Assembly: GCA_017436845.1 (NCBI GenBank) | Contig: JAFSCJ010000003.1 | Location: 1 to 64,000 of the forward strand | Source of the DNA: Muribaculaceae bacterium | GTDB taxonomy: Bacteria; Bacteroidota; Bacteroidia; Bacteroidales; Muribaculaceae | Length of the DNA stretch: 64,000 nt | Direction of reading: 5' to 3' | In this document: positions 12,299 through 30,664 of the stretch, one piece after another | How positions within the stretch are numbered: position 1 is the first letter of the stretch | Layout of the letters: the number at the start of each line of letters is the position of its first letter | The notes under the pieces: generated by a model | Databases searched by the model: none | What the model saw: only the letters and a program-made list of their open reading frames with translations | What the model was told of the DNA's origin: nothing | Program-made: the position numbers and the translations under genes

Positions 12299-12422
12299 CT
12301 AATAATTCTTTATCTCAACCCACATTCTGCTTGAAAATTTACAACACCATCATCCTTTTAAGCTATAAAAACTACAATCCCCGAAAATTACCATTGAAGA
12401 ATAGTCCAATTTGCATTGCTAT

Positions 12423-12487
12423 AAAAAAGGAGGTTACGGTTTCACAACCACAACCTCCAGCAAAACTAATTATTTTGATAAGGTTTA
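12423..12487 (-). terminator. Operon-end 3' UTR and terminator, near-identical to 30431-30495
   Basis: Starting right after the stop of the 221-aa gene, the minus strand has a 12-13 bp stem (GGAGGTTGTGGTT with AACCGTAACCTCC, loop GTGA) followed by six T residues. The whole 65 nt matches the 3' end of the opposite operon at 30431-30495, with four substitutions and one small gap by my alignment. It therefore forms one arm of an inverted repeat around the 18-kb locus. Confidence 0.85.
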
Positions 12488-13153
12488 TTAGTCCTTAAAA
12501 AAATCAACAACAAGTAATAAGCTCTCAGGCTTTTTCCATCTTATTTTGTTATTTTTTAAAAATAACTTCCATGATTCCTTGCTGTCGGCAGGTAGAATTT
12601 TCTCTACATCTTTTTTGTTTGCTTCTATATCAATTTTGCCTATTCGCAAAAAATATTTTTTACGCATACCAATCTCTTTTCCATCATGCTTTTCTTGCAA
12701 CATCAAACCATGACGTTGATTATTCAAACCGGCAAGTTCCAATGATGAAAGATTTCTACCTGAGCCTGTGTTAAGACTAGTACCATAAGCTCCTATTTGA
12801 GTAAATAATGCGTCAAAATCGGCATAATCATATCGTAGCACCATCCCTGCACTACTTTTCGCCATAACCTGCATTATTTTCCCATCACATTGCACATAGG
12901 TAGTCCCTGATATAACAACACTATCAATTTCACTATATTTTGCTGTATATATTTTATCATCATCAGGATTGATGTAGTGCAACACATTATCAACTAAGTG
13001 AATGTTGAATTTTGCCACACTATGTTCCTTCCCTCGATAGACTGTACCTTCGGCAAAATTCTCATTCAAATAGGGCCATTTGGTATTTGGAGAATAAGCA
13101 TTTGCAATAGTCGCAACAAAAAATATCAAGATTGTTAATATCTGATTTCTCAT
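12488..13153 (-). CDS. Secreted protein of unknown function next to a C10 peptidase
   Basis: 221 aa with a signal peptide (residues 1-19, cut after IANA). The mature part begins WPYLNENFAEGTVYRGKEH and continues with a repeating beta pattern (FNIHLVDNVLHYINPDDDK), then a basic C-terminal half. I do not recognise a named domain; similar secreted proteins are widespread but uncharacterised in Bacteroidales. It is the last gene of the minus operon, 12 nt downstream of the C10 peptidase. Some Bacteroides C10 peptidases are encoded beside a small inhibitor, so an immunity or inhibitor role is possible. Nothing in the sequence proves it. The plus operon has an unrelated gene at this position. Confidence 0.6.
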   Translation of the reverse strand: MRNQILTILIFFVATIANAYSPNTKWPYLNENFAEGTVYRGKEHSVAKFNIHLVDNVLHYINPDDDKIYTAKYSEIDSVVISGTTYVQCDGKIMQVMAKSSAGMVLRYDYADFDALFTQIGAYGTSLNTGSGRNLSSLELAGLNNQRHGLMLQEKHDGKEIGMRKKYFLRIGKIDIEANKKDVEKILPADSKESWKLFLKNNKIRWKKPESLLLVVDFFKD

Positions 13154-13165
13154 AATAATATATTC

Positions 13166-14740: not shown

Positions 14741-14759
14741 AAAATTTACTTTAATTGCA

Positions 14760-14807
14760 AAAGAGGTCTTATTTTTCCTCGATATTCAAGAAAAATAAGA
14801 CCTCTTT
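14760..14807 (-). terminator. Perfect 18-bp hairpin just before the C10 peptidase start (copy A)
   Basis: Arms 14760-14777 and 14790-14807 are exact reverse complements around a 12-nt loop. On the minus strand the stem ends in CTCTTTT only 19 nt before the peptidase ATG. It may be an internal terminator that lowers peptidase expression, or an mRNA-stabilising or processing hairpin. A hairpin of different sequence holds the same place before copy B. Confidence 0.75.
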
Positions 14808-14837
14808 ATTATCTATTAATAAATATATTCGATTCTA

Positions 14838-16490
14838 TTATTTAATAGATTTGGGACTCAAAACAGAGACATTGTTTATACTAAACATTTTTGCGCTACG
14901 AGATAATGATGTTGCAGCTACAGCCTTTGTTCCATATGTTTCCGCAGCAGCGTCATACCAACCAAGACCATCAATATAATATCCCCACAATGTAGGAGAT
15001 GAGAATGAGCCATCGGCTGAGAATTGTAAAATAATATCATCATCTGAACCTCCATTCGAGAAAAAGACCTCAGCTATAGTTGTATTACCCTGTGCGTCTA
15101 TTCTAAATTCATATTTGCCCAAACTTTGATCAATTGGGATAGCAATTGTTCCATAATCGCCATTGCATATACCTTTTATTGATGTTCCTTCAGCAAATAA
15201 ATTAGAAATAACAACACCTGTTTCTGATTCTGGATCAGCGGTTATACTAATATTTTCTGCATATACAGAATTATCAAAATAGCTTTTCCATTGCATAGTA
15301 TAATCTCCTAAGAAATTTTCACGAGTAAAGCCATAAGAGTACAACCATGCTTCAGCAAATTCTATTTCTTCATTAGGGTTCCCATAAGCATCGACAAATG
15401 CTCCGGCAGGAATTTTAATTCCTACATAATCGCCATATGCAGGCGCTTGTGGAAGAACAAATGCAAAATTGTTTCTTGTTGTCATCCATTGACTTGACGA
15501 CAACTTAATCGATGTTTCAGACTGAGCGTTAACGTATGTTACTACAACTTCTTTTCTTATGACATTTCCGTCTTCATCAACAGGATAGTAAACAGCACCA
15601 TTCATAGTTAAAACGCCCATAAAATCAGCCCATTTATTGAAAGCTGAGCCTAATTCAGGAGCTGTAACATTTTCTTCTGAAATTGCAAAAGGCACATTAG
15701 TATTTTGACCTGACAAACCAACAAAATCGCCTTCTGATTCACTAAATCCGCTTGTGATAGCTGCACACTTGTGTCCATAAGAATCAACAAATGCACCTTC
15801 TTCCCAACTGAATGACACATAAGCACCTGCAGGAGCTGATTTAGTCAAGATTGCAATCTGGTTATCTTGTACTTCCACTACAATTGAATCAGCGTCCACA
15901 TCAACAGGCGCAACTACTCCATTGTATAGTTCCATAATTTTGTAGTATTTAGCTGTTACAGCCACATCTTCTACACGAGTGATCGCTTCAGAAAATGCAA
16001 CATACATCACGCCATTATCGGGATCATATTCATAATCTACAGGTTTTGGGGCGAGAGCATCGGTAGTTGTAACAGATTCAACAGCAATTTCTCCTATAAC
16101 ACTTTTCTCATTAGCAGCAACAGCATAGATTTGATATGTAGTGTTGGGGGATGCGATAGGAGCACCTTCAGCATTACGCATATTGTAGGTAAAAGTTGCT
16201 TGTTCTTTAGCATCAACTACAATAGTTCCATAAGTACTTGAATAAAGTCCTTTGTAAAGTGATTCTGCATTTAATGCAACAGGTGCATCAGCTTCATCAA
16301 CCAAAACAGAGTAGAACATAGTACCCTCTGAAGGTGTTACAGTAAATGTAAATGTAGAGTCGGTTGTTTCTGTTACCTCAATCGCAACAGAAGGAGCATC
16401 TCCATATTTTTCTGTAACAGGATCATCAAAGTCAGCACAACCGGTCATTAATAGACCCATTGTCATTAAGCTATATATAATCTTTTTCAT
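14838..16490 (-). CDS. Surface lipoprotein with Ig-like SbsA-type repeats
   Basis: 550 aa with lipobox LMTGCADF (Cys18). The mature protein is a string of beta-sandwich modules. One about residues 30-130 resembles a fibronectin type III fold (TTYQIYAVAANEKS). Two related modules follow around 135-245 and 265-385; each ends in a shared motif, EEGAFVDSYGHK and PAGAFVDAYGNP, as in SbsA-type Ig domains. A C-terminal lipocalin-like or BT-type domain starts near FLGDYTMQWKSYFD. It is probably a surface binding protein working with the SusCD pair upstream. The plus operon has no counterpart. The ligand is unknown; without carbohydrate enzymes nearby, a protein or peptide is as likely as a glycan. 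Confidence 0.7.
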   Translation of the reverse strand: MKKIIYSLMTMGLLMTGCADFDDPVTEKYGDAPSVAIEVTETTDSTFTFTVTPSEGTMFYSVLVDEADAPVALNAESLYKGLYSSTYGTIVVDAKEQATFTYNMRNAEGAPIASPNTTYQIYAVAANEKSVIGEIAVESVTTTDALAPKPVDYEYDPDNGVMYVAFSEAITRVEDVAVTAKYYKIMELYNGVVAPVDVDADSIVVEVQDNQIAILTKSAPAGAYVSFSWEEGAFVDSYGHKCAAITSGFSESEGDFVGLSGQNTNVPFAISEENVTAPELGSAFNKWADFMGVLTMNGAVYYPVDEDGNVIRKEVVVTYVNAQSETSIKLSSSQWMTTRNNFAFVLPQAPAYGDYVGIKIPAGAFVDAYGNPNEEIEFAEAWLYSYGFTRENFLGDYTMQWKSYFDNSVYAENISITADPESETGVVISNLFAEGTSIKGICNGDYGTIAIPIDQSLGKYEFRIDAQGNTTIAEVFFSNGGSDDDIILQFSADGSFSSPTLWGYYIDGLGWYDAAAETYGTKAVAATSLSRSAKMFSINNVSVLSPKSIK

Positions 16491-16510
16491 CTTGTTTTAA
16501 TTTTAAATTA

Positions 16511-17350
16511 TTATTGCTTAGTCCAAACTGCATTCACCATGATATTATACCATGAATTTGTTCCTGTTAAGTTAGATCCAAACCAGTCATTAATAACAAT
16601 TGTTCCATTATCATTAATTACCGCAGTAATATTACCTCCCGTTGGAATAGATTCATCTCCGCTTGGTCCATAAAATCCTTCAAGTTTAGCATCGTTAACA
16701 AGATCTTGTCCTACAGGAATTGCAATTTCAGTTTTGTCAGCATTTACGATACCATATACCATATATCCAGTAGCTGTTCCTGCAGGAACCATAGGATATA
16801 TCCAAACTTTTTGAATATCTTGATCATCTTTCAATATTTGGAAGCTCCATTCGGTTTCGCCATTAAAATATGATTCACCTTTACCCACATATTTGCCTAA
16901 AATTGCTTGCAATGGATGTTCGTTATCAGCGATTGTTACTACACATGTAGAAACAGCGCCCATGTTAACACCTGTTACAGCAGTAATTTTTAACACAATC
17001 TTTTTGTCACCGCCAAATTCATCATTATCAATAATTTGAATGTTAAAATTTTGTGTTGGAGCATCTTTTGTGAAAGTTATTGTATTGCTTTCAGGTAGAG
17101 TAAAATGCACTCCTTCTATAGCTGTAGAAGTAGAATCAACCTCTATTACAGCTTCTCCATCAAGACCGGCAAGAGAGGTAAGCAACACAGGAACATCGAT
17201 TGAGCCGCCAAATTCATCAACGCTCAAAGCTGTATTTGTAAATGCAATAAATGCATCAGCATCATTAAATTCCGGTTGATCATTACTACAAGAAGCAAAA
17301 AGCATCATGCTTGCAACTGCCGCACCGTATATAAAATTAAACTTTTTCAT
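16511..17350 (-). CDS. Calx-beta-like surface lipoprotein, copy A
   Basis: 279 aa with lipobox LFASCSND (Cys20). Residues about 35-145 form a Calx-beta-type domain: VDEFGGSIDVPVLL, IEGVHFTLPES, NFNIQIIDNDEFGGDKKIVLKI and VTIADNEHP. The C-terminal half (GKYVGKGESYFNGETEWSF onward) is a separate beta-rich domain. Calx-beta modules bind calcium or act as structural spacers. The gene follows SusD with 27 nt between and is matched in position and domain order by 26715-27593 in the other operon. It is likely an accessory surface lipoprotein of the import complex. Confidence 0.7.
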   Translation of the reverse strand: MKKFNFIYGAAVASMMLFASCSNDQPEFNDADAFIAFTNTALSVDEFGGSIDVPVLLTSLAGLDGEAVIEVDSTSTAIEGVHFTLPESNTITFTKDAPTQNFNIQIIDNDEFGGDKKIVLKITAVTGVNMGAVSTCVVTIADNEHPLQAILGKYVGKGESYFNGETEWSFQILKDDQDIQKVWIYPMVPAGTATGYMVYGIVNADKTEIAIPVGQDLVNDAKLEGFYGPSGDESIPTGGNITAVINDNGTIVINDWFGSNLTGTNSWYNIMVNAVWTKQ

Positions 17351-17377
17351 TTTAGTAATTCTCTATTAAAAGATTAA

Positions 17378-18808
17378 TTAATAACCTGGGTTTTGTTCCA
17401 TGTTAGGATTAGCCTCCATTTCGCGTTTAGGAATAGGCAAAGCCCACATATAGCTTGGGAACTCAACATTTTGATTTACGTTGTCATCAAAATCAGTACG
17501 AGTCATAGATTTTTTACAACGTGCATAGTCATAGTGAATGTGACCTTCAAAAGCAAGTTCACGACGACGTTCATCAAAGATTCCTTGATCTGTAGCCGCG
17601 GCAGCAGTACATCCACGTTTTTCAGCTATTGCAGCAAGGTCTCCAGCTGCAGTAGCACCTGCAACTGATGCACCATTTAACAATGCCTCAGCACGATTCA
17701 AATACATTTCAGAAATACGAATCAATGGCACATTAGTTGTACGTGGTTGAACCCCTTCTTTACCGGTATATTTACCACAATAGTATTCACCATTGTGCTC
17801 TTGGTACATAGCTAAACGCACATCACCATCTTCATAAAGATTGATTAGATCCATTGTTGCACAAACATCAGCTGATCCATTGTCGCCAAAATTAGTTATA
17901 TAAGGTAAGTGAGTCCAACCTGAAGCATCCCAATAAGAATTGAGTTTATCTCCAAACACTTCAAAGATATATTCCCCACCTTCAGTAGCTATTGAAGCAC
18001 TGAACATAGTTTTGTAAGTATTAGCATCAGCAAGGCTGAATTTACCGCTATTAATAACTTTTGTTGCATAGTCAGCAGCACCTTGCCAATTACCCATATA
18101 TAGGTACACACGAGACAAGAATGCTTGGATAGCAGGTTTTGTAGCAGCCGCTACAGGGTCATTAACACCTGCACGTTGATATCCATCAGCCATTAACGCT
18201 TCGGCATCGGTCAAGTCTTTTACGATTTGAGTATAAACTTCTGCAACAGTATTACGTGCCGGAGTGCCATTTTCGGTTACAAGAACTACAGGCACACCTA
18301 AACTCTCAGGTTGATAAGTATATGGTTGTGCATAAGTTGTAACCAAATTATGATAGCAGAATGCACGAACAAAAAGAGCTTCGGCCATGAGATTATCAAG
18401 ATCGGCTTGAGTTGCATTGCGCTCTTGATTGATATCTATATTAGGAATTGCATTAATCACGTTATTTGCCCATGCAATAGTATAATATGCATAAGACCAC
18501 ACAGGCGATGTTGAATTTTCATTATAAATCCATGTTGTGTAACCTGTATAACGTCCTGACCCCGGCTCTTGCAAAGGTTTTTTTGCATTACCACAACGCA
18601 TTTCCGAACTTAAAATGTATTCGCCATCAAACCAAGATGCACTTTGAAACATAGTGTATAATCCGGCAGTAGCATTATTAATACCATCGTAAGACGATAG
18701 CGTCAATTCATTGCTTTGTGACAGTTCCGGTTCTTGTTCCAAGAATCCATCGCAAGAAACAAGCATCATTGCCGAAAGAACTGCGCAACTAAATAATATC
18801 TTTTTCAT
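17378..18808 (-). CDS. SusD/RagB-family surface substrate-binding lipoprotein, copy A
   Basis: 476 aa. Lipobox MLVSCDGF (Cys19). The helical TPR-like SusD core is visible through FLEQEPELSQ at the N-terminus, ALFVRAFCYHNLVTTYAQPY (about residues 143-162), RVYLYMGNWQGAADYATKVI, LIRISEMYLNRAEALL and the conserved end LPIPKREMEANPNMEQNPGY. SusD proteins form the lid of a SusC barrel and capture the substrate. It lies 29 nt after the SusC gene. With peptidases in the operon, the RagB model (peptide binding) fits better than glycan binding. Confidence 0.92.
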   Translation of the reverse strand: MKKILFSCAVLSAMMLVSCDGFLEQEPELSQSNELTLSSYDGINNATAGLYTMFQSASWFDGEYILSSEMRCGNAKKPLQEPGSGRYTGYTTWIYNENSTSPVWSYAYYTIAWANNVINAIPNIDINQERNATQADLDNLMAEALFVRAFCYHNLVTTYAQPYTYQPESLGVPVVLVTENGTPARNTVAEVYTQIVKDLTDAEALMADGYQRAGVNDPVAAATKPAIQAFLSRVYLYMGNWQGAADYATKVINSGKFSLADANTYKTMFSASIATEGGEYIFEVFGDKLNSYWDASGWTHLPYITNFGDNGSADVCATMDLINLYEDGDVRLAMYQEHNGEYYCGKYTGKEGVQPRTTNVPLIRISEMYLNRAEALLNGASVAGATAAGDLAAIAEKRGCTAAAATDQGIFDERRRELAFEGHIHYDYARCKKSMTRTDFDDNVNQNVEFPSYMWALPIPKREMEANPNMEQNPGY

Positions 18809-18837
18809 ATTTATATTTCTTTTTACGATGATTAAAA

Positions 18838-21813
18838 TTAGAATGTAACATCAAGACCCAATACAAATGTCTTAGTAACTGGATAAATACCATATCCAAG
18901 ACCATCTACACCACGTTCAGGATCCCAGAAATTAACATCATGGAATGTATATAGATTCATTCCTGTTGCATAAACTCTCACATTATCCATTCCTGCTTTT
19001 TTGATAAGTTTTTTAGGCAATGTATATGATAGTGTAACATCTTTGATGCGGAAATAATCGCCATCTTCCAACCAACGGTCAGAACTCATTGAGTTAGAGC
19101 TTGTAGTGTTACCTGCGATTGGTTTTGGATTACATCCTGTATCTCCAGGTTTTTTCCAATAGTTAAGAGCTGAAGTCATTTGATTCATGCTCATTTGTGT
19201 ACCATCACTATTCAAGTAAGAATATTCAGCACCGATATATACTTTATTTCCGGTTTTGAATTCACCTAATACGCTTAGACTAAAGTCTTTCCATGTAACT
19301 GTTGTATTGATACCACCCGTAAATTTAGGCTCAGGGCTTCCGCAATAATACCAACGAGCATCGCTATAGTTGTTAGTTAATTTACCATCTTCAGTTACCC
19401 AAAGAGCTTCACCATTAACAGGATTTACTCCATAATAGTCTTTCAAGTAGAATGTGTACATTCCCTCTCCAACGACATGACGTAAGCGACTGTCTCCTGA
19501 ATAAGAAAGGAATTCTTCACCAGCAAGTTCAAGAATTTTTGTTTTGTTGTGAGATAAATTAAATCCTACATTCCATGACCAATCTTTATTACGAAGAATA
19601 TTAACATCTACTTGCAATTCAACACCTGTATTGCGCATTGAACCAATATTGTCAAGCACCGAGTTGAAACCTGTTGTAGAAGATTGAGTTCTTGTCAAAA
19701 GCATGTCGGTAGTTTTACGAGTATAGAAATCGATAGTACCTGTTACTCTATCGAAGAAACCAAAATCAATACCTACGTTAAATGATTTATTCTTTTCCCA
19801 TGACAAATCAGGATTAGCCGGAGTTGATGGAACAAGACCATTCACACCATTATAGTAAGAAGAAGCGTAAACACCATAGTGAGCATAGTTTCCAATTCCA
19901 TCATTACCATTGATACCATAGCTTACGCGCAATTTAGCCAAATTCAACCATGTGTAATCTCTCAAGAATGCTTCATTATGAGCATTCCATGATGCACCAA
20001 GTGCATAGAAGAAGCCCCATTGCTTGTTAGACCCAAATTTAGAGCTACCATCATAACGACCTGACAATTGCAAGAAATAGCGAGAATCATAACTATAATC
20101 AAGAATACCAAGGAATGACAATAGTGTTGATGTTGAATTGCTATATCCTACTTCATAGTTGGCACCTGAAGAATGATATGGTATTTCAGGATTTAATGTA
20201 TCAGAATATCCATAGTATTGATATCCATAGTCATGAGTAGCTTCTTGACCAAGCAATACGCGCAAATTGTGTACATCATTGTAAACATCCTGCCATGTAG
20301 CAGTATTTGATGTAGTTAATGTGCGGTAAGTAGTATTTGTTGATTGAAGCACAGGATATCCTGTAGAATAATTACTTGCTTCTTGTGACCAATAGCGACG
20401 ACCTTCCTTAAATTTCATCTCAGCACCATTATTTGAACGAAGGGTTAATTGACGAATAGGTTTATATTCTAAGTACATGCTACCTTGAATATTATATGTC
20501 TTTTCCCATTGTTCATCATACTCAGCAGTTGCACGAGGGTTAGTATATGAATTTTCAGGGATATTTGTGTTATGATTACCCATTTCATCATAAGCAGGAG
20601 TCCATGGCAACATGGTCATACCGGCAAATGCAGGGTTTGAATAATACAATGATTGCATTGGTATATCTTCAGAATATGTATACCCAAGATTTAAGCGAGC
20701 ACCTGTCTTAAGATATTTACTCAACTCATGATCAACATTGAAACGAGCTCCAATTTTATTATAATCGACACCATAATAGATACCTTGATTATCGTGATAA
20801 TTCAAAGAACTATAATAGTTTGTTTTGTCGTTACCTCCTGAAGCGTTGATTTCATACTCTTGCATCTTACCAAGACGAGTAAAATGATCCATCCAATTTG
20901 TTTGCTCTTTAGCAAGCAAAGAATATGGGCGATAATATGAAGCTCCTACTGTTGGGTCATCAGGGTTTTTGCCAGCATTAATAACAGCATCACGTTGATA
21001 TTGAAGCAACTCTTGCCCCGACATAACTCCTACATTGTTGTCATTTGCCAATGTTGAGAGACCGAAACGCGCGCGTACATTAAATGTACTCTTGCCTGAT
21101 TTGCCACTTTTTGTTGTGATCAAAATAACCCCATTGGCAGCACGAGAACCATAAACACTTGCAGCTGCAGCATCTTTCAACACTGTAATATTTTCAATGT
21201 CGTTAGGATTGATTGCAGCAATAGCATTGTTAGTGTTTACAAGATCAGCTTCATCTCCACTTGATACAGGAATACCATCAACAACATACAATGGACCATT
21301 CCCTGCATTAATAGAAGATGTACCACGAATACGAATGCTTGTAGATGATCCCGGTTGTCCTGATGATTGTGTAATCATCACACCTGCCATTTTTCCTGAA
21401 AGCATCTTGTCAATAGATGTTGCGGGAATATCAGCAATTTCATCTGCATTTAATGTTGTGATGGCACCTGTTTTAGCTTCGCGCTTTTGGCTACCATAAC
21501 CAACAACAATAACATCATCAAGAGTATTATCACTACTCTCTAATGTGATAAGCATATTATCACTCACGTTTACTGTCTTTGTGGCCATACCCACATAAGA
21601 AACTTTAATTTGCTTAACATTGTCATTAATGTTAAGCACAAAACCACCATCAAAGTCAGTAGCGACACCATTGCCTCCACCTATAGGCAACACAGTAGCC
21701 CCAATCATAGGCTCATTGTCACTTGCGTTAACTACCTTTCCACGCACTGTGCGAGCGTCAGCGGCAAAAGCGATGGTACAAACTGCGATTAAAAAGAATA
21801 ACAGCTTTCTCAT
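18838..21813 (-). CDS. SusC/RagA-family TonB-dependent transporter, copy A
   Basis: 991 aa. Signal peptide to about residue 20 (ADA|RT). A carboxypeptidase-regulatory-like domain follows (about 22-95) with MIGATVLPIGGGNGVATD, then a TonB-box and plug region (VIVVGYGSQKREAKTGAI, IRIRGTSSINAGNGPLYVVDG, VLKDAAAASVYGSRAANGVI) and a 22-strand-type barrel ending in FVLGLDVTF. It imports the substrate captured by SusD, using TonB energy. Its N-terminal domain is unusually close to that of copy B at the DNA level (21641-21711 against 22232-22302, inverted). No ECF sigma or anti-sigma gene lies beside it. Confidence 0.94.
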   Translation of the reverse strand: MRKLLFFLIAVCTIAFAADARTVRGKVVNASDNEPMIGATVLPIGGGNGVATDFDGGFVLNINDNVKQIKVSYVGMATKTVNVSDNMLITLESSDNTLDDVIVVGYGSQKREAKTGAITTLNADEIADIPATSIDKMLSGKMAGVMITQSSGQPGSSTSIRIRGTSSINAGNGPLYVVDGIPVSSGDEADLVNTNNAIAAINPNDIENITVLKDAAAASVYGSRAANGVILITTKSGKSGKSTFNVRARFGLSTLANDNNVGVMSGQELLQYQRDAVINAGKNPDDPTVGASYYRPYSLLAKEQTNWMDHFTRLGKMQEYEINASGGNDKTNYYSSLNYHDNQGIYYGVDYNKIGARFNVDHELSKYLKTGARLNLGYTYSEDIPMQSLYYSNPAFAGMTMLPWTPAYDEMGNHNTNIPENSYTNPRATAEYDEQWEKTYNIQGSMYLEYKPIRQLTLRSNNGAEMKFKEGRRYWSQEASNYSTGYPVLQSTNTTYRTLTTSNTATWQDVYNDVHNLRVLLGQEATHDYGYQYYGYSDTLNPEIPYHSSGANYEVGYSNSTSTLLSFLGILDYSYDSRYFLQLSGRYDGSSKFGSNKQWGFFYALGASWNAHNEAFLRDYTWLNLAKLRVSYGINGNDGIGNYAHYGVYASSYYNGVNGLVPSTPANPDLSWEKNKSFNVGIDFGFFDRVTGTIDFYTRKTTDMLLTRTQSSTTGFNSVLDNIGSMRNTGVELQVDVNILRNKDWSWNVGFNLSHNKTKILELAGEEFLSYSGDSRLRHVVGEGMYTFYLKDYYGVNPVNGEALWVTEDGKLTNNYSDARWYYCGSPEPKFTGGINTTVTWKDFSLSVLGEFKTGNKVYIGAEYSYLNSDGTQMSMNQMTSALNYWKKPGDTGCNPKPIAGNTTSSNSMSSDRWLEDGDYFRIKDVTLSYTLPKKLIKKAGMDNVRVYATGMNLYTFHDVNFWDPERGVDGLGYGIYPVTKTFVLGLDVTF

Positions 21814-21870
21814 AGTTTTACATAAAAATTAAACATATATTATTTACTCTCTTTCTATTTATAATTTGTG

Positions 21871-21892
21871 CAATCTCTTGCTAAGAGATTTC
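21871..21892 (-). repeat. 22-bp inverted repeat, left copy (leader of SusC copy A)
   Basis: This is the exact reverse complement of 22046-22067. The repeat itself folds: arms AATCTCTT and AAGAGATT close a GCT loop, and on this side the flanks TTGTG and CACAA extend the palindrome. It falls at the expected 5' end of the minus-operon mRNA, 79 nt before the SusC ATG when counted from 21892. Confidence 0.9.
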
Positions 21893-22045
21893 ACAACTAT
21901 ACAATTGCCTAATTTTTAAGTAGTAACACGCGTGCTCTGCTGTAAAATATCAAATTTTAGATTTTGGCAAAATGTTAAATCTGGAGAAAAAATGCTTTCA
22001 TTTGTTTATAATAAGAGAATTTATACTATCTTTGCAATTTGATAT
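21893..22045. promoter_or_regulatory. Candidate invertible promoter segment between the two SusCD operons
   Basis: These 153 bp lie between exact 22-bp inverted repeats. A -33 TTTG at 22001-22004 and a -7 TATCTTTGC at 22027-22035 (22-nt spacer) point to the plus operon, with a start near 22041, right at the right repeat. Facing left there is only TATAGTTG, one mismatch from TAnnTTTG, without a TTTG at proper distance. Inversion would turn the good promoter to the minus operon with the same geometry. The repeats and promoter are seen; inversion is inferred. Otherwise the region is an ordinary divergent promoter with duplicated leader hairpins. Confidence 0.55.
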
Positions 22046-22067
22046 GAAATCTCTTAGCAAGAGATTG
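22046..22067 (+). repeat. 22-bp inverted repeat, right copy (leader of SusC copy B)
   Basis: Exact reverse complement of 21871-21892 and itself an 8-bp hairpin with a 3-nt loop. It begins about 5 nt after the predicted transcription start and 81 nt before the SusC copy B ATG. The leader beyond it (CAAATTAAGAATGGAAGAAAG) resembles the opposite leader. Confidence 0.9.
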
Positions 22068-22126
22068 CAAATTAAGAATGGAAGAAAGTTTATTTAATAT
22101 TAATGTATGTCTAATTTAAATTAAGT

Positions 22127-25093
22127 ATGAAAAAGCTGTTTCTATTACTTTTGACAGTCTTGACTATTTCTCTTAGTGCATATGCGCAAAAGAAGGTGTC
22201 GGGTACTGTAATTGATGCCGGAACAGGTGAACCTCTAATTGGTGCGACTGTTTTGCCGGTAGGTGGAGGCAATGGTGTGGCAACTGACCTTGATGGTAAG
22301 TTTACATTGACAGTTCCATCTAAAGTGACTCAGATTAATGTGTCTTATGTGGGTATGCAATCTCAAACTGTTGCTATCTCAGAAAACATGACCATTGCTC
22401 TTGCAGTAAATAACACAACTCTTGATGAGGTAGTTGTAACCGGTTATGGTTCTGCTCGTAAACTTGGTTCTATCGTAGGTTCTGTAACTGCTGTTAGTGG
22501 TGATATCGTAGAAAATTCTCCGGTAGCTAACATCGGTGACGCTCTTCAAGGGCAAGTTGCCGGTCTTCAAGTATTCACTTCAAGTGGTGAGCCAAGTAGC
22601 TCTGCAAGTATGCGTATTCGTGGTGTCAGCTCAATTAACAGTAGCTCTGAACCATTGTTTATCCTTGATGGTTCTCCAATTTCATCAGGCGCATTTACTG
22701 CATTGAACCCTAACGATATTGAAACAATGACAGTATTGAAAGATGCGTCAGCAACAGCTATCTATGGTTCTCGTGCTGCTAATGGTGTTGTAATCTTGAC
22801 AACTAAAAAAGGTAAACGTGGACAAAAAGCAAAAGTTCAAGTTAGCGCTCAATATGGTATCTCTAAAATGACAGGTGACCGTATGGATATGATGAACGCT
22901 GAAGAATGGTTGAACTTCCAAGAAATGCTTGACCCATCAATGAAAAATAATGCAGCATTCCAAGCTGAAAAACAATTCTATATTGATAATGGTATTTCTA
23001 CTGACTGGGCTGATGTATTTTTTGGCGGATCTGCTCCAATGCAACAATATGATCTTAGCATCACTGGCGGTACTGAAGCATTGAACTATTACCTATCATT
23101 CAGCCACTATGATGCAGATGGTATTATGGACGACTCTAATCTACGTCGTGAAACTTTGCGCTCAAACATTGATGCAAGCATCAACCAATGGATTCGCGTA
23201 GGTGCAAACTTGAGCTTGTCTTATCAAAAATATATTACAGCAGCGTTTGGCAATACTGCTAACTCTGTATATAACAAAGCATACGCATCTCGTATCTATC
23301 GTCCTGACCAATCTTACTATGAAATTCTTCGTAATGAAGATGGCTCATTTGCCGGATATGGTGATCGTCTTGACTATTTTGATAAACTTGGTTACTATAA
23401 CCCATATTATTTGTCAGAAATTCAACCAGGTCACAAAGATATGGTTCGTATAAATGGAGGTACATTTATTAACCTTAACCCTATCAAAGGTTTGAATATC
23501 CGAGCAGCACAAGGTGTTGAAGCATTTGACTATCGTTCATCAGGTGTAGCACTTCCTACAGGCCCATTTGAAGGTAACGGTTCTGCAAGCGAATCTTTCC
23601 AACGTTACTATCAATTCACTTATACTAATACTGCTGAATATCGTTTCAACATTGAAAAATTGCACAATGTTACTCTTTTGGCAGGTCAAGAATCTATCAT
23701 TACTAAGAATGAATCATTTGGTGTAAGTGTAGATGGTTTGACTGATACTCGTCTTATGTTGATGAGCTCAGCTTCAATCCCAACTCTTCCTTCTCACAGC
23801 AAATATGACAAAGTATTTAACTCATTCTTTGGAACATTAAGCTACAATTATGATGAAAAATACTTTGCCGACTTTACATTCCGTCGTGACGGGTCTTCAT
23901 TGTTTGCTAAGAATAAACAATGGGGTAACTTCTGGTCAGCAGGTGCTATGTGGAATATCAAGAAAGAAGAATTCATGAAAGACCTTACTTGGCTTAATGC
24001 ATTGCAATTCAAAGCAAGCTATGGTTTGATTGGTAACTCTTCAGGTCTTGACCCATATATGTCTCTTGGTCTTATCGGTGACGGCCCATTGTATAATGGC
24101 GTAGGCGGTACAGCTATTGCTAACTCTGCTAACCCTGACTTGACTTGGGAGGTTGTTAAATCAACTAACTTAGGTATTAGTGCACGTGTATTGGATCGCG
24201 TAAGTGTAGATCTTGAATACTACAACCGTTTGACAGAAGATATGTTGATGGATATTCCTTATTCATTTACAACAGGTTTCTCTTCAGGATGGGGTAACGT
24301 AGCAAGTATGCGCAACCGTGGTTTCGATGCTACAGTTAATGTTGATATCTTCAAAAATTTCTATGGTGTTGACTGGAGTGTATCAGCAAACATTAACTAC
24401 AACCAAAACGAAATTACAGAATTGTTCAACGGCCGTGACGAATATGTATTGGCTAACACTGGTTTGAAACTTCAAGTAGGTAAACCTTATGGTGAATATT
24501 TCTATACTCGTTGGGCAGGTGTTGACCCACGCGATGGTTACAACATGTGGAAAGACAAAAACGGTAACTTGACAAAAGTATTCTCTGAAGATGATGCAGT
24601 ATTTACAGGAAAACAACGTTACGCTCCATGGTCAGGTGGTCTTGGAACTCGCGTAAGCTGGAAAGGTATCACTGTAAGCGCTGACTTCTCATTCATGCTT
24701 GGTCAACACTTGATTAACAATGAACGTTGGTTCGTTGAAAACCCACAATTTGCATCTAAAAATAACCAAACTACTAAGATGTTTACAATGTGGCAAAAAC
24801 CAGGTGATATCACAGAAATTTCAACTCCTGAATCACCAATGCAATTTGATACTCACTTGCTTGAAGATGCTTCATTCATGCGTATGAAGAACTTGACAGT
24901 AAGCTATAATCTTCCTCAAAACATTATCCGTAAAACAGGATTTGTTGAAGGATGTAAAGTATTCTTTATCGGACGTAACTTGTGGACAATTACTGACTAT
25001 CAAGGTTATGACCCTGAAGTTGATAACAACGTTCAACTTGGTAACTATCCTAATACTAAACAAGTTTCTTTCGGTCTTGAGTTAACATTCTAA
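22127..25093 (+). CDS. SusC/RagA-family TonB-dependent transporter, copy B
   Basis: 988 aa. Signal peptide to about residue 20 (AYA|QK). The regulatory-like domain (about 22-95) has LIGATVLPVGGGNGVATD. The plug follows (VVVTGYGSARKLGSIVG, MRIRGVSSINSSSEPLFILDG, VLKDASATAIYGSRAANGVV) and a barrel ends in VSFGLELTF. It is paralogous to copy A and heads the plus operon behind the stronger promoter. The codon choice is strongly biased (many CGT, GGT, AAC), which suggests high expression. Substrate is inferred to be peptide because the operon encodes a C10 peptidase and no glycan enzyme. Confidence 0.94.
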   Translation: MKKLFLLLLTVLTISLSAYAQKKVSGTVIDAGTGEPLIGATVLPVGGGNGVATDLDGKFTLTVPSKVTQINVSYVGMQSQTVAISENMTIALAVNNTTLDEVVVTGYGSARKLGSIVGSVTAVSGDIVENSPVANIGDALQGQVAGLQVFTSSGEPSSSASMRIRGVSSINSSSEPLFILDGSPISSGAFTALNPNDIETMTVLKDASATAIYGSRAANGVVILTTKKGKRGQKAKVQVSAQYGISKMTGDRMDMMNAEEWLNFQEMLDPSMKNNAAFQAEKQFYIDNGISTDWADVFFGGSAPMQQYDLSITGGTEALNYYLSFSHYDADGIMDDSNLRRETLRSNIDASINQWIRVGANLSLSYQKYITAAFGNTANSVYNKAYASRIYRPDQSYYEILRNEDGSFAGYGDRLDYFDKLGYYNPYYLSEIQPGHKDMVRINGGTFINLNPIKGLNIRAAQGVEAFDYRSSGVALPTGPFEGNGSASESFQRYYQFTYTNTAEYRFNIEKLHNVTLLAGQESIITKNESFGVSVDGLTDTRLMLMSSASIPTLPSHSKYDKVFNSFFGTLSYNYDEKYFADFTFRRDGSSLFAKNKQWGNFWSAGAMWNIKKEEFMKDLTWLNALQFKASYGLIGNSSGLDPYMSLGLIGDGPLYNGVGGTAIANSANPDLTWEVVKSTNLGISARVLDRVSVDLEYYNRLTEDMLMDIPYSFTTGFSSGWGNVASMRNRGFDATVNVDIFKNFYGVDWSVSANINYNQNEITELFNGRDEYVLANTGLKLQVGKPYGEYFYTRWAGVDPRDGYNMWKDKNGNLTKVFSEDDAVFTGKQRYAPWSGGLGTRVSWKGITVSADFSFMLGQHLINNERWFVENPQFASKNNQTTKMFTMWQKPGDITEISTPESPMQFDTHLLEDASFMRMKNLTVSYNLPQNIIRKTGFVEGCKVFFIGRNLWTITDYQGYDPEVDNNVQLGNYPNTKQVSFGLELTF

Positions 25094-25120
25094 TTACTAA
25101 CACAAAAGAGATAAAAGGAA

Positions 25121-26683
25121 ATGAAAAAACTAAATATTTTTGCAGCTTCTCTGATTGCGTTGGGACTATTTTCCTGCGACATGGATAAATATCCCTATGA
25201 TGCATTGGAAGAATCTACATACATGACAACTATGAATGACTTCGCTAATGCAAGAGTAGGTCTTTACTCTTACTATAGAAGTCTTACAACCGGTGGTTAT
25301 ATCTTGACACCGGAAATCCAAGCCGATGATTTTAATGCAGTTTCAGGCTTTTCAAACATTTATGGCAACTCCTACCGTTGGGATTTCCAATCAACAGATG
25401 GAAATATTGAAGCTATATGGTCGGCTTATTATGCTCACATAGCACGTGCCAATTATTATATTGACAGCTATACCAAGATTGTAGAAGGTGAAAACACATT
25501 CACAGAAGAAGAAATTGCTACTCTTGGTGCATACGTAGCTGAAGCTTATTTCACTCGTGCTAATGCTTATTTGACATTGGCAGGTTATTTCTGTAAAGGT
25601 TATGATGACGCTACAGCTGAAACAGATTTAGGATTGCCGTTGCAATTGACTTATGCTCCTTCTTCTGATGCTTCAACTTATCCCGGTCGTTCATCGTTGA
25701 AAGCAACTTATGCTCAAATCATGAGCGATATTGCTGAGGCAGAACGTTTGATTAATCCAAATTTGATTTTGTCAAAAGATCAAAAAGCATTGAATTACAT
25801 TTCAGCTGATGTTGTAACAGCGTTGAAAGCTCGTGCTGCATTGCAAATGAAAGATTATGCAACAGCTGTTACAGCTTCTACTTCGCTAATCGCATCAGGC
25901 AATTATCCTTTGATTGATGCAAATACACAAGAAGGCGTTAATGCATTCTATGATTTGTGGGAATTTGACGAAGGTACTGAAGTAATGTGGCAAATTTACT
26001 TGTCTCCTGACGAGCTTGGTTCAGCTACCGGAACAACTTTCTGGGGTCAATACAAAGAAAGCGATCCAAGCCAACAAGTTATGGATTATATCCCATCTCA
26101 AAATTTGGTTGATTTGTATGACGTGAATGATATTCGTTTGTATACATTCTTTGCTCCATTTACTTTGACTGTTGCAACAGGCGCACAAGGTAATATCTAT
26201 GTATTCAACAAATATCCGGGTAACCCGGAATTGAATGCAAGCCTAAATGTTGATGATCACTATACCAACTATCCAAAACCATTCCGCATTTCAGAACAAT
26301 ATCTAATTGCCGCTGAAGCTTATGCAGGAAGCAAAAATTTGGGCAAGGCAAGTGAATACTTGAATGCGTTGAAATCAAAACGTATACTTGGTTATCAAGC
26401 CAATAATTATTCAGATGAGGTTACTTTCATGTCAGCACTTCAAGATGAACGTCACAGAGAGTTGGTAGGTGAAGGTTTCCGTCTTGTTGACTTGAAACGT
26501 TGGGGTCTTGGTGTAAATCGTGGTAATGCTCCACAAAATGCAAATCTTGTACTTTTCCCGGGAGCTGAAACTACAACTGCTCTAAATAAAGCGGCTAACG
26601 ATTTCCGCATGGTATGGCCTATTCCAAAGTCTGAAATGGATGCTAATCCACAACTTAAAGGTCAACAAAACCCCGGTTACTAA
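25121..26683 (+). CDS. SusD/RagB-family surface substrate-binding lipoprotein, copy B
   Basis: 520 aa with lipobox LFSCDMDKYP (Cys19). SusD features include the N-terminal PYDALEESTYMTT region, YVAEAYFTRANAYLTLAGYF (about residues 143-162), ALKARAALQMKDYATAV, FRISEQYLIAAEAYAGSKN, DERHRELVGEGFRLVDLKRWG and the end WPIPKSEMDANPQLKGQQNP. It pairs with the SusC 27 nt upstream. It is clearly longer than copy A, so the binding face may differ. Confidence 0.92.
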   Translation: MKKLNIFAASLIALGLFSCDMDKYPYDALEESTYMTTMNDFANARVGLYSYYRSLTTGGYILTPEIQADDFNAVSGFSNIYGNSYRWDFQSTDGNIEAIWSAYYAHIARANYYIDSYTKIVEGENTFTEEEIATLGAYVAEAYFTRANAYLTLAGYFCKGYDDATAETDLGLPLQLTYAPSSDASTYPGRSSLKATYAQIMSDIAEAERLINPNLILSKDQKALNYISADVVTALKARAALQMKDYATAVTASTSLIASGNYPLIDANTQEGVNAFYDLWEFDEGTEVMWQIYLSPDELGSATGTTFWGQYKESDPSQQVMDYIPSQNLVDLYDVNDIRLYTFFAPFTLTVATGAQGNIYVFNKYPGNPELNASLNVDDHYTNYPKPFRISEQYLIAAEAYAGSKNLGKASEYLNALKSKRILGYQANNYSDEVTFMSALQDERHRELVGEGFRLVDLKRWGLGVNRGNAPQNANLVLFPGAETTTALNKAANDFRMVWPIPKSEMDANPQLKGQQNPGY

Positions 26684-26714
26684 TCTATTTAATCAATAAA
26701 AGACTATTTTAATT

Positions 26715-27593
26715 ATGAAACTAAATAAAATATTTGCACTGATGCTCGCTGCTACAATGTTTACAGCTTGTTCTGATGATGACAAGAGCTGGAACAGCAA
26801 CGATGTAACAGTAAATATGCTTGAAAGCGAAGTTTCCGTTAAGGAAAACAATGGAATATTTAATGTTCCTGTTTCTGTCGACGGTGAAATGAATGGTCCA
26901 GTAGAGGTAACTGTTGAAGTTGCAGAGGCAGGAGCAAATCCAGCTATGGATGATGTTCATTACGTTGTTACAGAAAAAACTATTGTGATTGTTGCTGAAG
27001 ATGGTGTTGGCAATATTGAAATCAGAGCGGTAGATGATGATGAAATCAATGAAGCTCGCACATTTACAGTTACAATTGTAGATGTTAAGGGTGGTGTTGT
27101 CGGTCAAAATGCAACTGCTACTGTTTACCTAAAAGATAATGACTCGGTATTCTATGAAAAATTGCAAGCTAATTGGAAAATGAACGTAACAAGTAAGTAC
27201 GACGGTGCTGTTGCATGGAATACTAAAATCGTTGGTTATCAAGAAGGAGATGCCGGTTATAACAAAACTCTATTTGTAACAGGAGTTCTTGGTTATGATT
27301 TCTGTCAACTTGAATTGAATTATTATTTCGACATGGACACTAAAACAGGCTATGTTGAAATTCCTTTGGGACAAGTTGTTGCAGCTTATGATGCCTCTAA
27401 TGACATCTTTGCTTGTGGTCTGACTCCTGAAGGGAATCTTACACTAAGTGGCTCAGTTAAGGGTACATGGAATGAAGACATGACAGAAATTACATTTGAA
27501 GACAAAGATATTGTGTTCTATGTAATGAATGGTTCTACTGGTGCCGGTCTTGGTCCATTTGACTGGGTTTGGGGTGTCACAATGACTCGTTAA
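26715..27593 (+). CDS. Calx-beta-like surface lipoprotein, copy B
   Basis: 292 aa with lipobox MFTACSDDD (Cys19). Residues about 30-142 match the Calx-beta pattern (VSVKENNGIFNVPVSVDG, DDVHYVVTEKT, NIEIRAVDDDEINEARTFTVTI, VYLKDNDS). The C-terminal half (WKMNVTSKYDGAVAWNTKIV onward) is a second beta domain with acidic loops. Same place and domain order as 16511-17350 in the minus operon, which supports common origin, although the sequences have diverged. It probably serves the surface complex; the ligand is unknown. Confidence 0.68.
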   Translation: MKLNKIFALMLAATMFTACSDDDKSWNSNDVTVNMLESEVSVKENNGIFNVPVSVDGEMNGPVEVTVEVAEAGANPAMDDVHYVVTEKTIVIVAEDGVGNIEIRAVDDDEINEARTFTVTIVDVKGGVVGQNATATVYLKDNDSVFYEKLQANWKMNVTSKYDGAVAWNTKIVGYQEGDAGYNKTLFVTGVLGYDFCQLELNYYFDMDTKTGYVEIPLGQVVAAYDASNDIFACGLTPEGNLTLSGSVKGTWNEDMTEITFEDKDIVFYVMNGSTGAGLGPFDWVWGVTMTR

Positions 27594-27622
27594 TATTCTG
27601 AAAAGATTAAGATTCTATAATT

Positions 27623-27657
27623 AAAGATTGGCACACAAAATGTGTGTGCCAATCTTT
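27623..27657 (+). terminator. Perfect 15-bp hairpin just before the C10 peptidase start (copy B)
   Basis: Arms AAAGATTGGCACACA (27623-27637) and TGTGTGCCAATCTTT (27643-27657) close a 5-nt loop and are followed by one more T and CC. The stem ends 16 nt before the peptidase ATG. Position matches the hairpin at 14760-14807, yet the sequences are unrelated, so structure rather than sequence is kept. Confidence 0.78.
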
Positions 27658-27673
27658 TCCATCTCTATAGTTT

Positions 27674-29290
27674 ATGAAGAATTTCATTAGTTTTTTATTG
27701 TTGCAATTCGTTGTTATATCGGCGTTTGCAACGTTGATAAGCCCTGAAAAAGCACAATCGGTGGCAGAACGATATATCGAGAGCCGTGCCGGTAAAGATT
27801 TCACCGTAAGGTCATCACAAAAAGCTGATGGCGCTTTCTATATTGTTAATTTTGCACCAAAAGGATGGGTTATCGTCGCTGCCGACGATGTTGTAAAGCC
27901 CATTATCGGTTATTCATTATCAGGAAGCCTTGATATGAATAAAATGCCTGATAATGTGTCATATATTCTTGATGGCTATAAAAAACAGATAAAATATATA
28001 GTGAGCACTGAAACAAAAGCACATGTAGGATGGGATAATCCGGAATATGTGCGTTCTCGTTCAGGGAATGAAGTGGAACCACTCATTAAAGTTAATTGGA
28101 ATCAAAGTGCCCCTTATAATGTGTATTGTCCCCGCCAAACAGCTCTTGTGGGGTGTGTAGCGGTTGCGATGAGTCAGGCAATGAGCGTGCAGAGACATCC
28201 GTCTCGTCCTGTTGGCTCTGTTTCATACAGCAGTGCTAATTATGGTTCATTGAGAATAAATTTTGATGAGCAACGTGCCTATAATTGGGATGATATAATG
28301 TCAGGAGCAAATAATTATGATGAAGCAGCTCGATTGATGTATCATGCCGGAATGAGTGTTAAGATGGACTATGGAGAAGATGGCTCCGGAATACCATCAA
28401 ATCAAGTGAGTCGCATTTCTAATGCTTTAAAAGAAAATTTCTCATATTCTGATGATGTAACCTATTATTGGCGAGACCAATATAGTGGCGATTGGAAACA
28501 ATTAATTGTTAATGAATTGAATGCCGGTCGTGCCGTCATTTATAACGCCATTGACTCAAAAGGTGGTTATGGACACAGTTTTAACCTTGATGGATATGAC
28601 AGCAATGGCTTGTTTAATGTCAATTGGGGTTGGGGTGGATATGGTGATGGCTATTTCTCTATTGACAACTTGCGTGATGGTCGCATGGGTATGAATTATG
28701 ACACCGGTCATGTTGTAGTTGTAGGTATTGGAGCTCCTGATCAACCACTCAAAAGTATTTCTTTGAGTCACAATCGCATCGAAGAAAACTTGCCTGCCGG
28801 CTCGGTAGTTGGTGCTATTGAAGTAAATGGAGAAGCTCCCAAGTCAACTTATAAGTTGAGTGTTCATGGTGTTTACCAAAGTAACATAGGAGGATATGCC
28901 GAAGTCCCATTTGTAATAGAAAATGGTCTATTGAAGACTACTGAATTATTGACAACAACAGGAAAAACATGGAATATTGAAATTTCTGTTGCAGATCCCG
29001 AAAGTGGAGCAGAGCTTACTCAAGGATTTAAAGTTACAGTAGATGCTTGGGCAAGTTTGGAGGAAAAGACTAAATTGAGTTATGATAGACTTAGTCGCAT
29101 GTTCAAGATTGTTACAAAGCACAATGTAACGTATAAGATTTATGACGCAAATAGTAATTTGATTCAAAGTGGGGAATTATCTCCATTGCCTGAATTAGAA
29201 TTTAATGCATCAATTCTTCCTGCGGGAAAAAACAGAATTGAATTGCGTTGTAATGATGAGATTAAGAAACTAAACATTGTCACAAAATAA
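27674..29290 (+). CDS. C10-family cysteine peptidase (streptopain-like), copy B
   Basis: 538 aa. Signal peptide residues 1-19. Propeptide-like region about 20-130 (FYIVNFAPKGWVIVAADD). Catalytic C10 domain about 135-350 with Cys161 in LVGCVAVAMSQAMS, His301 in GYGHSFNLDGYDS and the NWGWGGYGDGYF segment. A cadherin-like segment near 365 (SHNRIEENLPAGSVVGAIEV) parallels copy A. The tail (LPAGKNRIELRCNDEIKKLNIV) is beta-rich like a sorting domain but lacks the PGIY-type ending of copy A. Predicted to be an exported endopeptidase producing peptides for the SusCD pair of its operon. Confidence 0.88.
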   Translation: MKNFISFLLLQFVVISAFATLISPEKAQSVAERYIESRAGKDFTVRSSQKADGAFYIVNFAPKGWVIVAADDVVKPIIGYSLSGSLDMNKMPDNVSYILDGYKKQIKYIVSTETKAHVGWDNPEYVRSRSGNEVEPLIKVNWNQSAPYNVYCPRQTALVGCVAVAMSQAMSVQRHPSRPVGSVSYSSANYGSLRINFDEQRAYNWDDIMSGANNYDEAARLMYHAGMSVKMDYGEDGSGIPSNQVSRISNALKENFSYSDDVTYYWRDQYSGDWKQLIVNELNAGRAVIYNAIDSKGGYGHSFNLDGYDSNGLFNVNWGWGGYGDGYFSIDNLRDGRMGMNYDTGHVVVVGIGAPDQPLKSISLSHNRIEENLPAGSVVGAIEVNGEAPKSTYKLSVHGVYQSNIGGYAEVPFVIENGLLKTTELLTTTGKTWNIEISVADPESGAELTQGFKVTVDAWASLEEKTKLSYDRLSRMFKIVTKHNVTYKIYDANSNLIQSGELSPLPELEFNASILPAGKNRIELRCNDEIKKLNIVTK

Positions 29291-29302
29291 ATTTTATAGG
29301 AT

Positions 29303-30430
29303 ATGAAACATTTGAAATTTACAATATTGGCGTTAGGCTTGACAATGTTCTATTCTTGTAGCTCAGGTGGCGAAGATGAGCCAACCCCCCCCGCATCAGA
29401 TGGTGATGTAACAGTTACAATCTCTACTGAGATATTGACGAAAGCTAATGTAACAACTGCTTTTGCAAGTGGTGATGCTATGAATGTGTTTCCAAAGACT
29501 TATGGCAAAATCGATGCTCCTAACCGTGTTGACAATGTGAAAGCAACACTTTCAGGAGCAAATTGGTCAATGTCTCCTGAGGTTAAAATCTCAAAAGGTG
29601 AGAATGCATTTATATATGCAGTAGCTCCTTATAATGCAGCATATACCGATGCAACTGCTATACCTGTAGATGTTTCGCAACAGATAGATTTGCTATATTC
29701 AGGCTCATATGTACCTGTTTCTTATACAACACATAATGCGAAGCTTGTAATGAAACACGCATTGTCGTTGGTGTCTTTTAATATCAGCAAACAAGGATAT
29801 TCCGGTGCCGGAAATCTTTCAAAAATGTCGATATCAGGAGATAATGTATATACCAAAGGAACAATGAAGGTCGATAATGGGAAAATAACCGGAACATCTA
29901 AGGATGTATTTACATTTAATGTCAGCAAAAAGATTTCGGAGGCAGGGTGGAGCGAAGATCTACCACGCATGTGGCAAATTCCATTCTCAACAAAAATAAA
30001 TAAGGTAAACATTGCAATTACGATTGATAATGTAACTTATAATGTTGAATTCCCTGAGGTAGAAATGAAAAGCGGATATCAATATATCTTCCGCATGGTG
30101 TTGACCGATTATGGTCTTGAATTTATTCCCGGAGCAGTAGAAACAATCTCTTTAAATCAGGAAGAAGATGCGATGTCGGCTTTAAATGGTTATGGAGTAT
30201 TGACTATTACTCACGTTGGAAGTGAATTAATGATACCTGCATTCACCGGAGATGATGTCTTTGGTACTATAACATGGGGCGATGGCGCAAGTTCATCATA
30301 TAAGCCTAAGGCAACACATGTTTATTCAGGAACCTCAGAAAAAGAAGTTGTGATTGAAAGTTGGAATTCTACCGGGTTTGAACTTGACAAATTGACCGGA
30401 ATCGAAACAATCGATTTGACTTCTTATTAA
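29303..30430 (+). CDS. Fimbrillin-like lipoprotein
   Basis: 375 aa with lipobox FYSCSSGGED (Cys19). The fold signature of fimbrillin-like proteins is visible: TVTISTEILTKANVTTAFASGDAMNVFP, then AFIYAVAPYNAAYTD, AKLVMKHALSLVSFNIS, and SGYQYIFRMVLTDYGLEF. A short C-terminal module with TWGDGASSSYKP and HVYSG looks PKD-like. Fimbrillin-like proteins can be pilus subunits or single surface lipoproteins. No other pilus gene is near, so a surface accessory role is more likely here. It ends the plus operon, and its 3' UTR is nearly identical to that after the unrelated 221-aa gene of the minus operon. Confidence 0.65.
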   Translation: MKHLKFTILALGLTMFYSCSSGGEDEPTPPASDGDVTVTISTEILTKANVTTAFASGDAMNVFPKTYGKIDAPNRVDNVKATLSGANWSMSPEVKISKGENAFIYAVAPYNAAYTDATAIPVDVSQQIDLLYSGSYVPVSYTTHNAKLVMKHALSLVSFNISKQGYSGAGNLSKMSISGDNVYTKGTMKVDNGKITGTSKDVFTFNVSKKISEAGWSEDLPRMWQIPFSTKINKVNIAITIDNVTYNVEFPEVEMKSGYQYIFRMVLTDYGLEFIPGAVETISLNQEEDAMSALNGYGVLTITHVGSELMIPAFTGDDVFGTITWGDGASSSYKPKATHVYSGTSEKEVVIESWNSTGFELDKLTGIETIDLTSY

Positions 30431-30495
30431 TACCCTTATCAAAATAATTAGTTTTGCGGGAGGTTGTGGTTGTGAAACCGCAACCTCTTTTTTTT
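30431..30495 (+). terminator. Operon-end 3' UTR and terminator, near-identical to 12423-12487
   Basis: Stem GAGGTTGTGGTT (30460-30471) pairs with AACCGCAACCTC (30476-30487) around a GTGA loop and is followed by eight T residues. Similarity to the opposite operon begins at the stop codon and runs through the T-tract. Confidence 0.9.
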
Positions 30496-30598: not shown

Positions 30599-30664
30599 AT
30601 GATAAATCAATACACTCAACTGCTACAAGTCGTGGTCGTCGTCCTAAGATCTCAGGAGGGTTAA
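30599..30664 (+). CDS. ilv operon leader peptide (attenuator)
   Basis: A 21-codon reading frame starts with ATG shortly after the promoter. Nine residues are branched-chain, including the run LLQVVVVVL at residues 8-16 with five Val codons in succession. A terminator hairpin follows at 30700-30733, and ilvD begins 25 nt after it. This is the arrangement of leader-peptide attenuation: when charged tRNA-Val or tRNA-Leu is scarce, ribosomes stall in the run and prevent terminator formation. GAGGG at 30656-30660 can pair with CCCTC at 30708-30712 as part of an antiterminator. Too short for routine gene callers. Confidence 0.85.
   Translation: MINQYTQLLQVVVVVLRSQEG

Follow-up and report, generated by a model that had tools for sequence, protein, structure and literature searches.

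The window analysed here is a 64,000-nucleotide stretch of a Muribaculaceae genome, and all positions without a contig label refer to it. It holds two divergent operons, A (12488-21813, minus strand) and B (22127-30430, plus strand), which follow the same SusC/SusD-C10-peptidase plan and lie between ilvE and ilvD. The neighbour on the A side is a class IV aminotransferase gene by Pfam, which we take to be ilvE; on the B side comes ilvD and then branched-chain amino-acid synthesis genes. The genes of the two operons are as follows.

18838-21813, minus strand: operon A, SusC-type TonB-dependent transporter, 991 aa (TIGR04056, over the cut-off)
17378-18808, minus strand: operon A, SusD family lipoprotein (Pfam)
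16511-17350, minus strand: operon A, Calx-beta domain protein (Pfam)
14838-16490, minus strand: operon A, 550-aa protein without a Pfam family
13166-14740, minus strand: operon A, C10 peptidase with I69 inhibitor prodomain (Pfam)
12488-13153, minus strand: operon A, last gene, 221 aa, without a Pfam family
22127-25093, plus strand: operon B, SusC-type transporter, 988 aa (TIGR04056)
25121-26683, plus strand: operon B, SusD family lipoprotein (Pfam)
26715-27593, plus strand: operon B, Calx-beta domain protein (Pfam)
27674-29290, plus strand: operon B, C10 peptidase with I69 inhibitor prodomain (Pfam)
29303-30430, plus strand: operon B, last gene, fimbrillin-like (Pfam Mfa_like_1)

Amino-acid identity between the operons is 35% for SusC, 27% for SusD, 25% for the Calx-beta lipoproteins and 45% for the C10 peptidases. 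We rejected the idea that one operon is a recent duplicate of the other, as the shared genes have only 25-45% protein identity. Between operon B and ilvD, a short open frame at 30599-30664 on the plus strand (MINQYTQLLQVVVVVLRSQEG) contains a run of valine codons and is followed by a hairpin; it looks like an attenuator leader peptide. The same frame occurs in the near relative G010, and in G008 as far as the sequence shown extends.

The two operons end in nearly the same DNA, in opposite orientation. A first-pass annotation of the window had described a 65-nt match here with four substitutions and one small gap, and we found exactly this. In an ungapped comparison 58 of 61 positions are identical, leaving three differences, and the bases directly after the stop codons add one further substitution and a 1-nt gap. 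The longest identical run does lie immediately 5′ of the stem, and is 24 nt long rather than the 23 nt first given.

12423-12483, minus strand: terminator of operon A, stem 12458-12429 (similarity search, terminator scan, folding)
30434-30494, plus strand: terminator of operon B, stem 30458-30489 (similarity search, terminator scan, folding)

Both ends have the form of a rho-independent terminator, a G+C-rich stem and then a T run 3′ of the last gene. Their folding energies are -23.4 kcal/mol for A and -20.3 kcal/mol for B (z -4.45 and -4.03), and at neither end did any of 200 shuffles fold equally well. No such pair arose in 100 shuffles of the window, and no known RNA family reached its gathering threshold in 10000-33000. 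Past the T runs the A and B DNA differs. The last genes themselves are unrelated, as first described: they have no significant BLASTP match to each other, and one is an Mfa_like_1 protein while the other falls in no Pfam family. A search of the whole 2.25-Mb genome (similarity at E<=0.001, and a pattern with at most 3 mismatches) returned these two copies and not the dozens that the first-pass annotation had named as the mark of a generic repeat. Among 99 genomes searched, the only convincing match besides the window's own genome was in G010; the remaining matches of that search (E<=1) had E values of 0.005 or worse, as expected at this threshold.

The region from which both operons start contains a second inverted repeat.

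21869-21893, minus strand: A-side copy of a 25-nt inverted repeat, a candidate inversion site and also a leader hairpin
22045-22069, plus strand: B-side copy, the exact reverse complement of the A-side copy
21894-22044: inter-repeat segment of 151 bp, proposed to invert
22001-22034, plus strand: full TTTG-N(17-23)-TANNTTTG promoter match, the only one in the A-B intergenic region, facing B

The promoter inside the repeats reads TTTG-N22-TATCTTTG, a type known from work on Bacteroides; operon A has no full match. The 25 nt observed compares with a maximum of 13 nt for exact inverted repeats in 300 mononucleotide shuffles of the 450 nt upstream of B. When 16 upstream regions were scanned (the A-B intergenic region being counted twice), a repeat longer than 11 nt was found elsewhere only at a third SusC operon. 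The A-B region thus has the inverted repeats around a short promoter-bearing segment (25 nt, gap 151) that are looked for in an inverton. The promoter now stands at -126/-100 before B; an in-silico flip moves it to -124/-98 before A and leaves B without one. An exact TANNTTTG box within 320 nt is absent for A and present for all 11 other SusC operons compared, namely B, nine from the ilvE-ilvD site in other genomes and that of G051. The missing -7 box is not unique to A, because two of the four remaining SusC genes of the genome also have no exact one within 320 nt, one of these two closely following another gene. Most SusC leaders compared in the genus have a small hairpin, varying in sequence, soon after the predicted start site.

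A second pair of these sites lies around the promoter of the third SusC/SusD operon, on another contig of the same genome, downstream of a DUF6377 gene.

C11:101213-101423: second inverted site pair, 20 nt exact, gap 171

This pair places the same site at a promoter elsewhere in the genome, another property looked for in invertons. It is not a textbook inverted pair: the outer halves of the sites differ, and a direct repeat is also common to both. The upstream copy lies in no leader, the upstream gene pointing the same way and there being a single SusC gene at this place. At one mismatch or fewer the 25-nt site was found at four places in the window's genome, all of them in these two pairs, and nowhere in the other 11 genus genomes. 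A search of viral contigs for the site gave no match. With two or three mismatches it matched in all 12 genus genomes, at a rate in the 11 others roughly equal to that of a reversed control pattern.

The A-B region is probably an either-or invertible promoter. We think it fairly probable, going by the arrangement of the DNA, that the two terminators end a pair of divergent SusC/SusD operons with one control region, that the promoter bracketed by the 25-nt repeats flips to serve either A or B, and that the terminator of A was copied from B. A tyrosine recombinase would act on the two inverted 25-nt copies, and the 151-bp flip would direct transcription into B, as in the assembly, or into A. In the assembly orientation A would be silent. 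Each transcript would stop at its own copy of the common terminator. The first-pass annotation had raised the idea of inversion without mentioning the 25-nt repeat, which encloses the only canonical promoter between A and B and is a much better candidate for the inverting element.

The genome encodes five tyrosine recombinases (PF00589), none beside either site pair, and a search for serine recombinases or invertases (PF00239) gave no match. One of the five is XerD-like, one is XerC-like and one is a free-standing protein of 282 aa, located at C20:73984-74415. The neighbours of the latter look like housekeeping genes, and its comparison with solved proteins gave one weak XerC-like match only. 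By exclusion only, it is a possible candidate for the invertase. Inverted repeats of at least 13 nt with a gap of 60-1500 were found beside none of four of the five recombinase genes; the fifth has one 13-nt inverted pair, inside L088. No inverted repeat of at least 14 nt lies in the 8.5 kb surrounding the C20 gene.

Comparison with relatives bears on the history of operon A. G010, a near relative, is a draft metagenome-assembled genome of Muribaculaceae from sheep rectum. Its layout is ilvE, 245 bp of mostly unalignable DNA, operon B and ilvD. Operon B has there the same orientation and the same neighbours as in the window, and a related terminator (86%). Operon A is missing, together with both of its border elements.

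12344-21966: segment missing in G010 (genome comparison)

Between 21901 and 34000, blocks of 0% and of 10-20% difference to the G010 contig C252 alternate, a pattern that suggests recent recombination or a mosaic assembly.

The 221-aa protein of operon A is found in 2 of 397 family genomes, the window's own included. G051, which belongs to another genus, has a full relative of operon A with the same gene order and other neighbours; identity to A is 74% for SusC, 60% for SusD, 53% for the C10 peptidase and 56% for the 221-aa gene. The G051 operon differs in its promoter and in the start of its leader; 40 nt past its 221-aa gene a polysaccharide deacetylase gene begins. The leader of A in the window begins with the B-like 25-nt element and its end is closed by the B-like terminator; the G051 operon has neither. 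Since the A genes have a full relative with different borders, the genes and the borders of A have different histories. Operon A as foreign cargo within B-type borders is supported by this comparison of sequences. The first-pass annotation had proposed that cargo genes were exchanged between conserved borders; cargo of different origin in matching borders is what the G051 and G010 comparisons uphold, with either capture or conversion as the mode.

A three-way comparison of the A, B and G010 operon B terminators points to a direction. All four substitutions between A and B are specific to A, B agreeing with G010 at each; at several sites A and B agree against G010; and, T-run length aside, B has no private states. 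The likeness of A and B ends at the T run, and B resembles G010 beyond it. (MAFFT misaligns the G010 end by one base around AATAATTAG, which inflates the differences, so this stretch was counted by eye.) Because the four substitutions are private to A, its terminator appears to have been copied from B when A arrived or afterwards. The simplest and most likely reading is that the copy was made after the lineages of the window and G010 had parted at this locus, a direction and timing that rest on one relative, itself a draft metagenome assembly. The G010 end of operon B lies within a diverged block of about 100 nt between near-identical stretches. Such a block amid near-identical DNA, in a draft metagenome assembly, makes mosaicism or recombination at that end possible.

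The sequence of events would then be that operon A arrived at the ilvE-ilvD site beside the resident B and received a copy of the B terminator as its end, either at arrival or through later conversion. The second course is compatible with the promoter switch and had been offered as an alternative in the first-pass annotation; it is about as compatible with the comparison as capture at arrival. Here gene conversion between the inverted ends would keep them alike, and A may have arrived with another terminator. The B end is more like the A end than like the B end of G010, which fits continuing conversion; so does the SusC tract of codons 36-60, where A shares 82% with B and 74% with its G051 relative. 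Against this, the shared tract at the operon ends is bounded by the stop codon and the T run, the extent expected of a single capture, and the SusC tract is short and protein-constrained. We regard conversion as quite possible, if somewhat doubtful. The SusC stretch around codons 36-60 (21646-21715 and 22228-22297) is possibly a small conversion tract, a weak indication on which we do not rely.

The ilvE-ilvD site varies across the genus, for which 12 genomes, the window's and 11 others, were compared. A SusC gene lies within about 6 kb upstream of ilvD in nine of the ten assessable others; G001 has none, and G007, whose sequence ends near ilvD, was excluded from the count. Grouped by SusC identity, the types found there are the B type (99% in G010, 51% in G004), that of G008, that of G002 and G005, and that of G003, G006, G009 and G011. 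None of the other genus genomes has an A-type SusC at the ilvD site. The ends after the last long gene in G004, G008, G002, G005, G003, G006, G009 and G011 are all unlike the terminator pair. Across the genus the site holds non-orthologous SusC/SusD operons in either orientation; it is a hot spot of exchange.

Inversion is not the only way to account for the 25-nt element. It may be an RNA leader element, because small hairpins near the same place are the rule in SusC leaders of the genus, and the B relatives in G004 and G010 have one that is loosely similar. The element would then be a leader-RNA hairpin of co-regulated SusC operons, whose terminators and leaders would be alike because one regulator acts on both operons, and A would have its own weak or sigma-specific promoter. 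Two points speak against a purely RNA-based hairpin: the upstream copy on C11 is not part of a divergent operon's leader, and the likeness of the A and B control regions has its start at the repeat rather than the promoter. We consider a switchless control region of this kind unlikely.

The terminators themselves form a long inverted repeat, with opposed arms of 61 nt each, 17,950 nt apart, and the first-pass annotation had suggested that the whole 18-kb locus might invert between them. This geometry is all that speaks for the suggestion, and we found it unsupported. Arms of 61 nt are short for homologous recombination, and in G010, the one relative available for this comparison, B is oriented as in the window and has the same neighbours, with no sign of the opposite order. 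A flip of the whole locus is thus very improbable. That the terminator is a generic dispersed repeat or an assembly artefact is scarcely credible: we found no point in favour, the genome has two copies only where a REP or MITE would be expected in many, the window lies inside a 230-kb contig, and the A and B ends diverge past their T runs.

Invertible promoters at surface-protein genes and SusC/SusD inversions are well established in Bacteroides, according to the available parts of two papers (PMC4747536, PMC10939037). In B. fragilis, as far as the first of these describes them, invertible promoters serve the capsule (Mpi), IVp-I/IVp-II (Tsr19/BF2766) and SusC/SusD clusters (Tsr0667). The arrangement proposed here is similar in that a promoter lies within inverted repeats before surface-protein operons, and SusC/SusD genes are among the known targets (PMC4747536). 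One B. fragilis invertase can serve distant sites of one genome (PMC4747536), and our candidate site likewise occurs both between A and B and on C11. The likeness is one of layout. The window's genome has no serine recombinase match. There are also differences within the portion of PMC4747536 at hand. IVp-II serves one gene cluster, and the upstream groES/EL genes are unaffected by its orientation, whereas an alternation of two operons is proposed here; SusC/SusD variation there is a shufflon-type inversion, whereas here a single promoter would alternate between two entire SusC/SusD operons.

In gut metagenomes, SusC/SusD systems are among the regions with the most variable orientation (PMC10939037), and SusC/SusD genes are concerned here too. 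A promoter placed between two divergent SusC/SusD operons, as proposed here, is not among the cases in the accessible text of that study. Strains of B. thetaiotaomicron differ in susC/susD within a related fructan locus, to judge from the excerpted account (PMC5967196), and SusC/SusD likewise differ at the ilvE-ilvD site. In contrast to that locus, whole non-orthologous operons differ here, and A has been added beside B and does not replace it.

The fimbriae promoter of Haemophilus influenzae reportedly varies by a change in repeat number, whereas DNA inversion is proposed here to choose one operon or the other. The parallel lies in the layout: two divergent fimbriae genes have one variable combined promoter region, according to the title of a study cited in PMC11868660, and here too one region stands between two divergent surface systems. 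Within the collection of papers covered, our literature search found none on invertible promoters or phase variation in Muribaculaceae. Nor did it turn up, in the partial texts it covered, a case of a promoter alternating two whole operons or of a newcomer fitted with the site and terminator of the resident, though this does not prove that none exists. If our reading is true, one promoter alternating two whole operons, and an incoming operon given the resident's site and terminator, would be new.

A wider proposal is tentative. One invertible promoter may allow only one of two SusC/SusD-protease operons, different in origin, to be expressed at a time, newcomers may take up the resident's inversion site and terminator, and the ilvE-ilvD site may be a plug-in site that collects and alternates uptake systems. 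Should the segment invert, the cells of a clone would carry one or the other uptake system on their surface, a choice between two systems as against the usual on-off. In that case the locus would also be an example of a newcomer operon coming under existing control by taking on the borders of the resident one.
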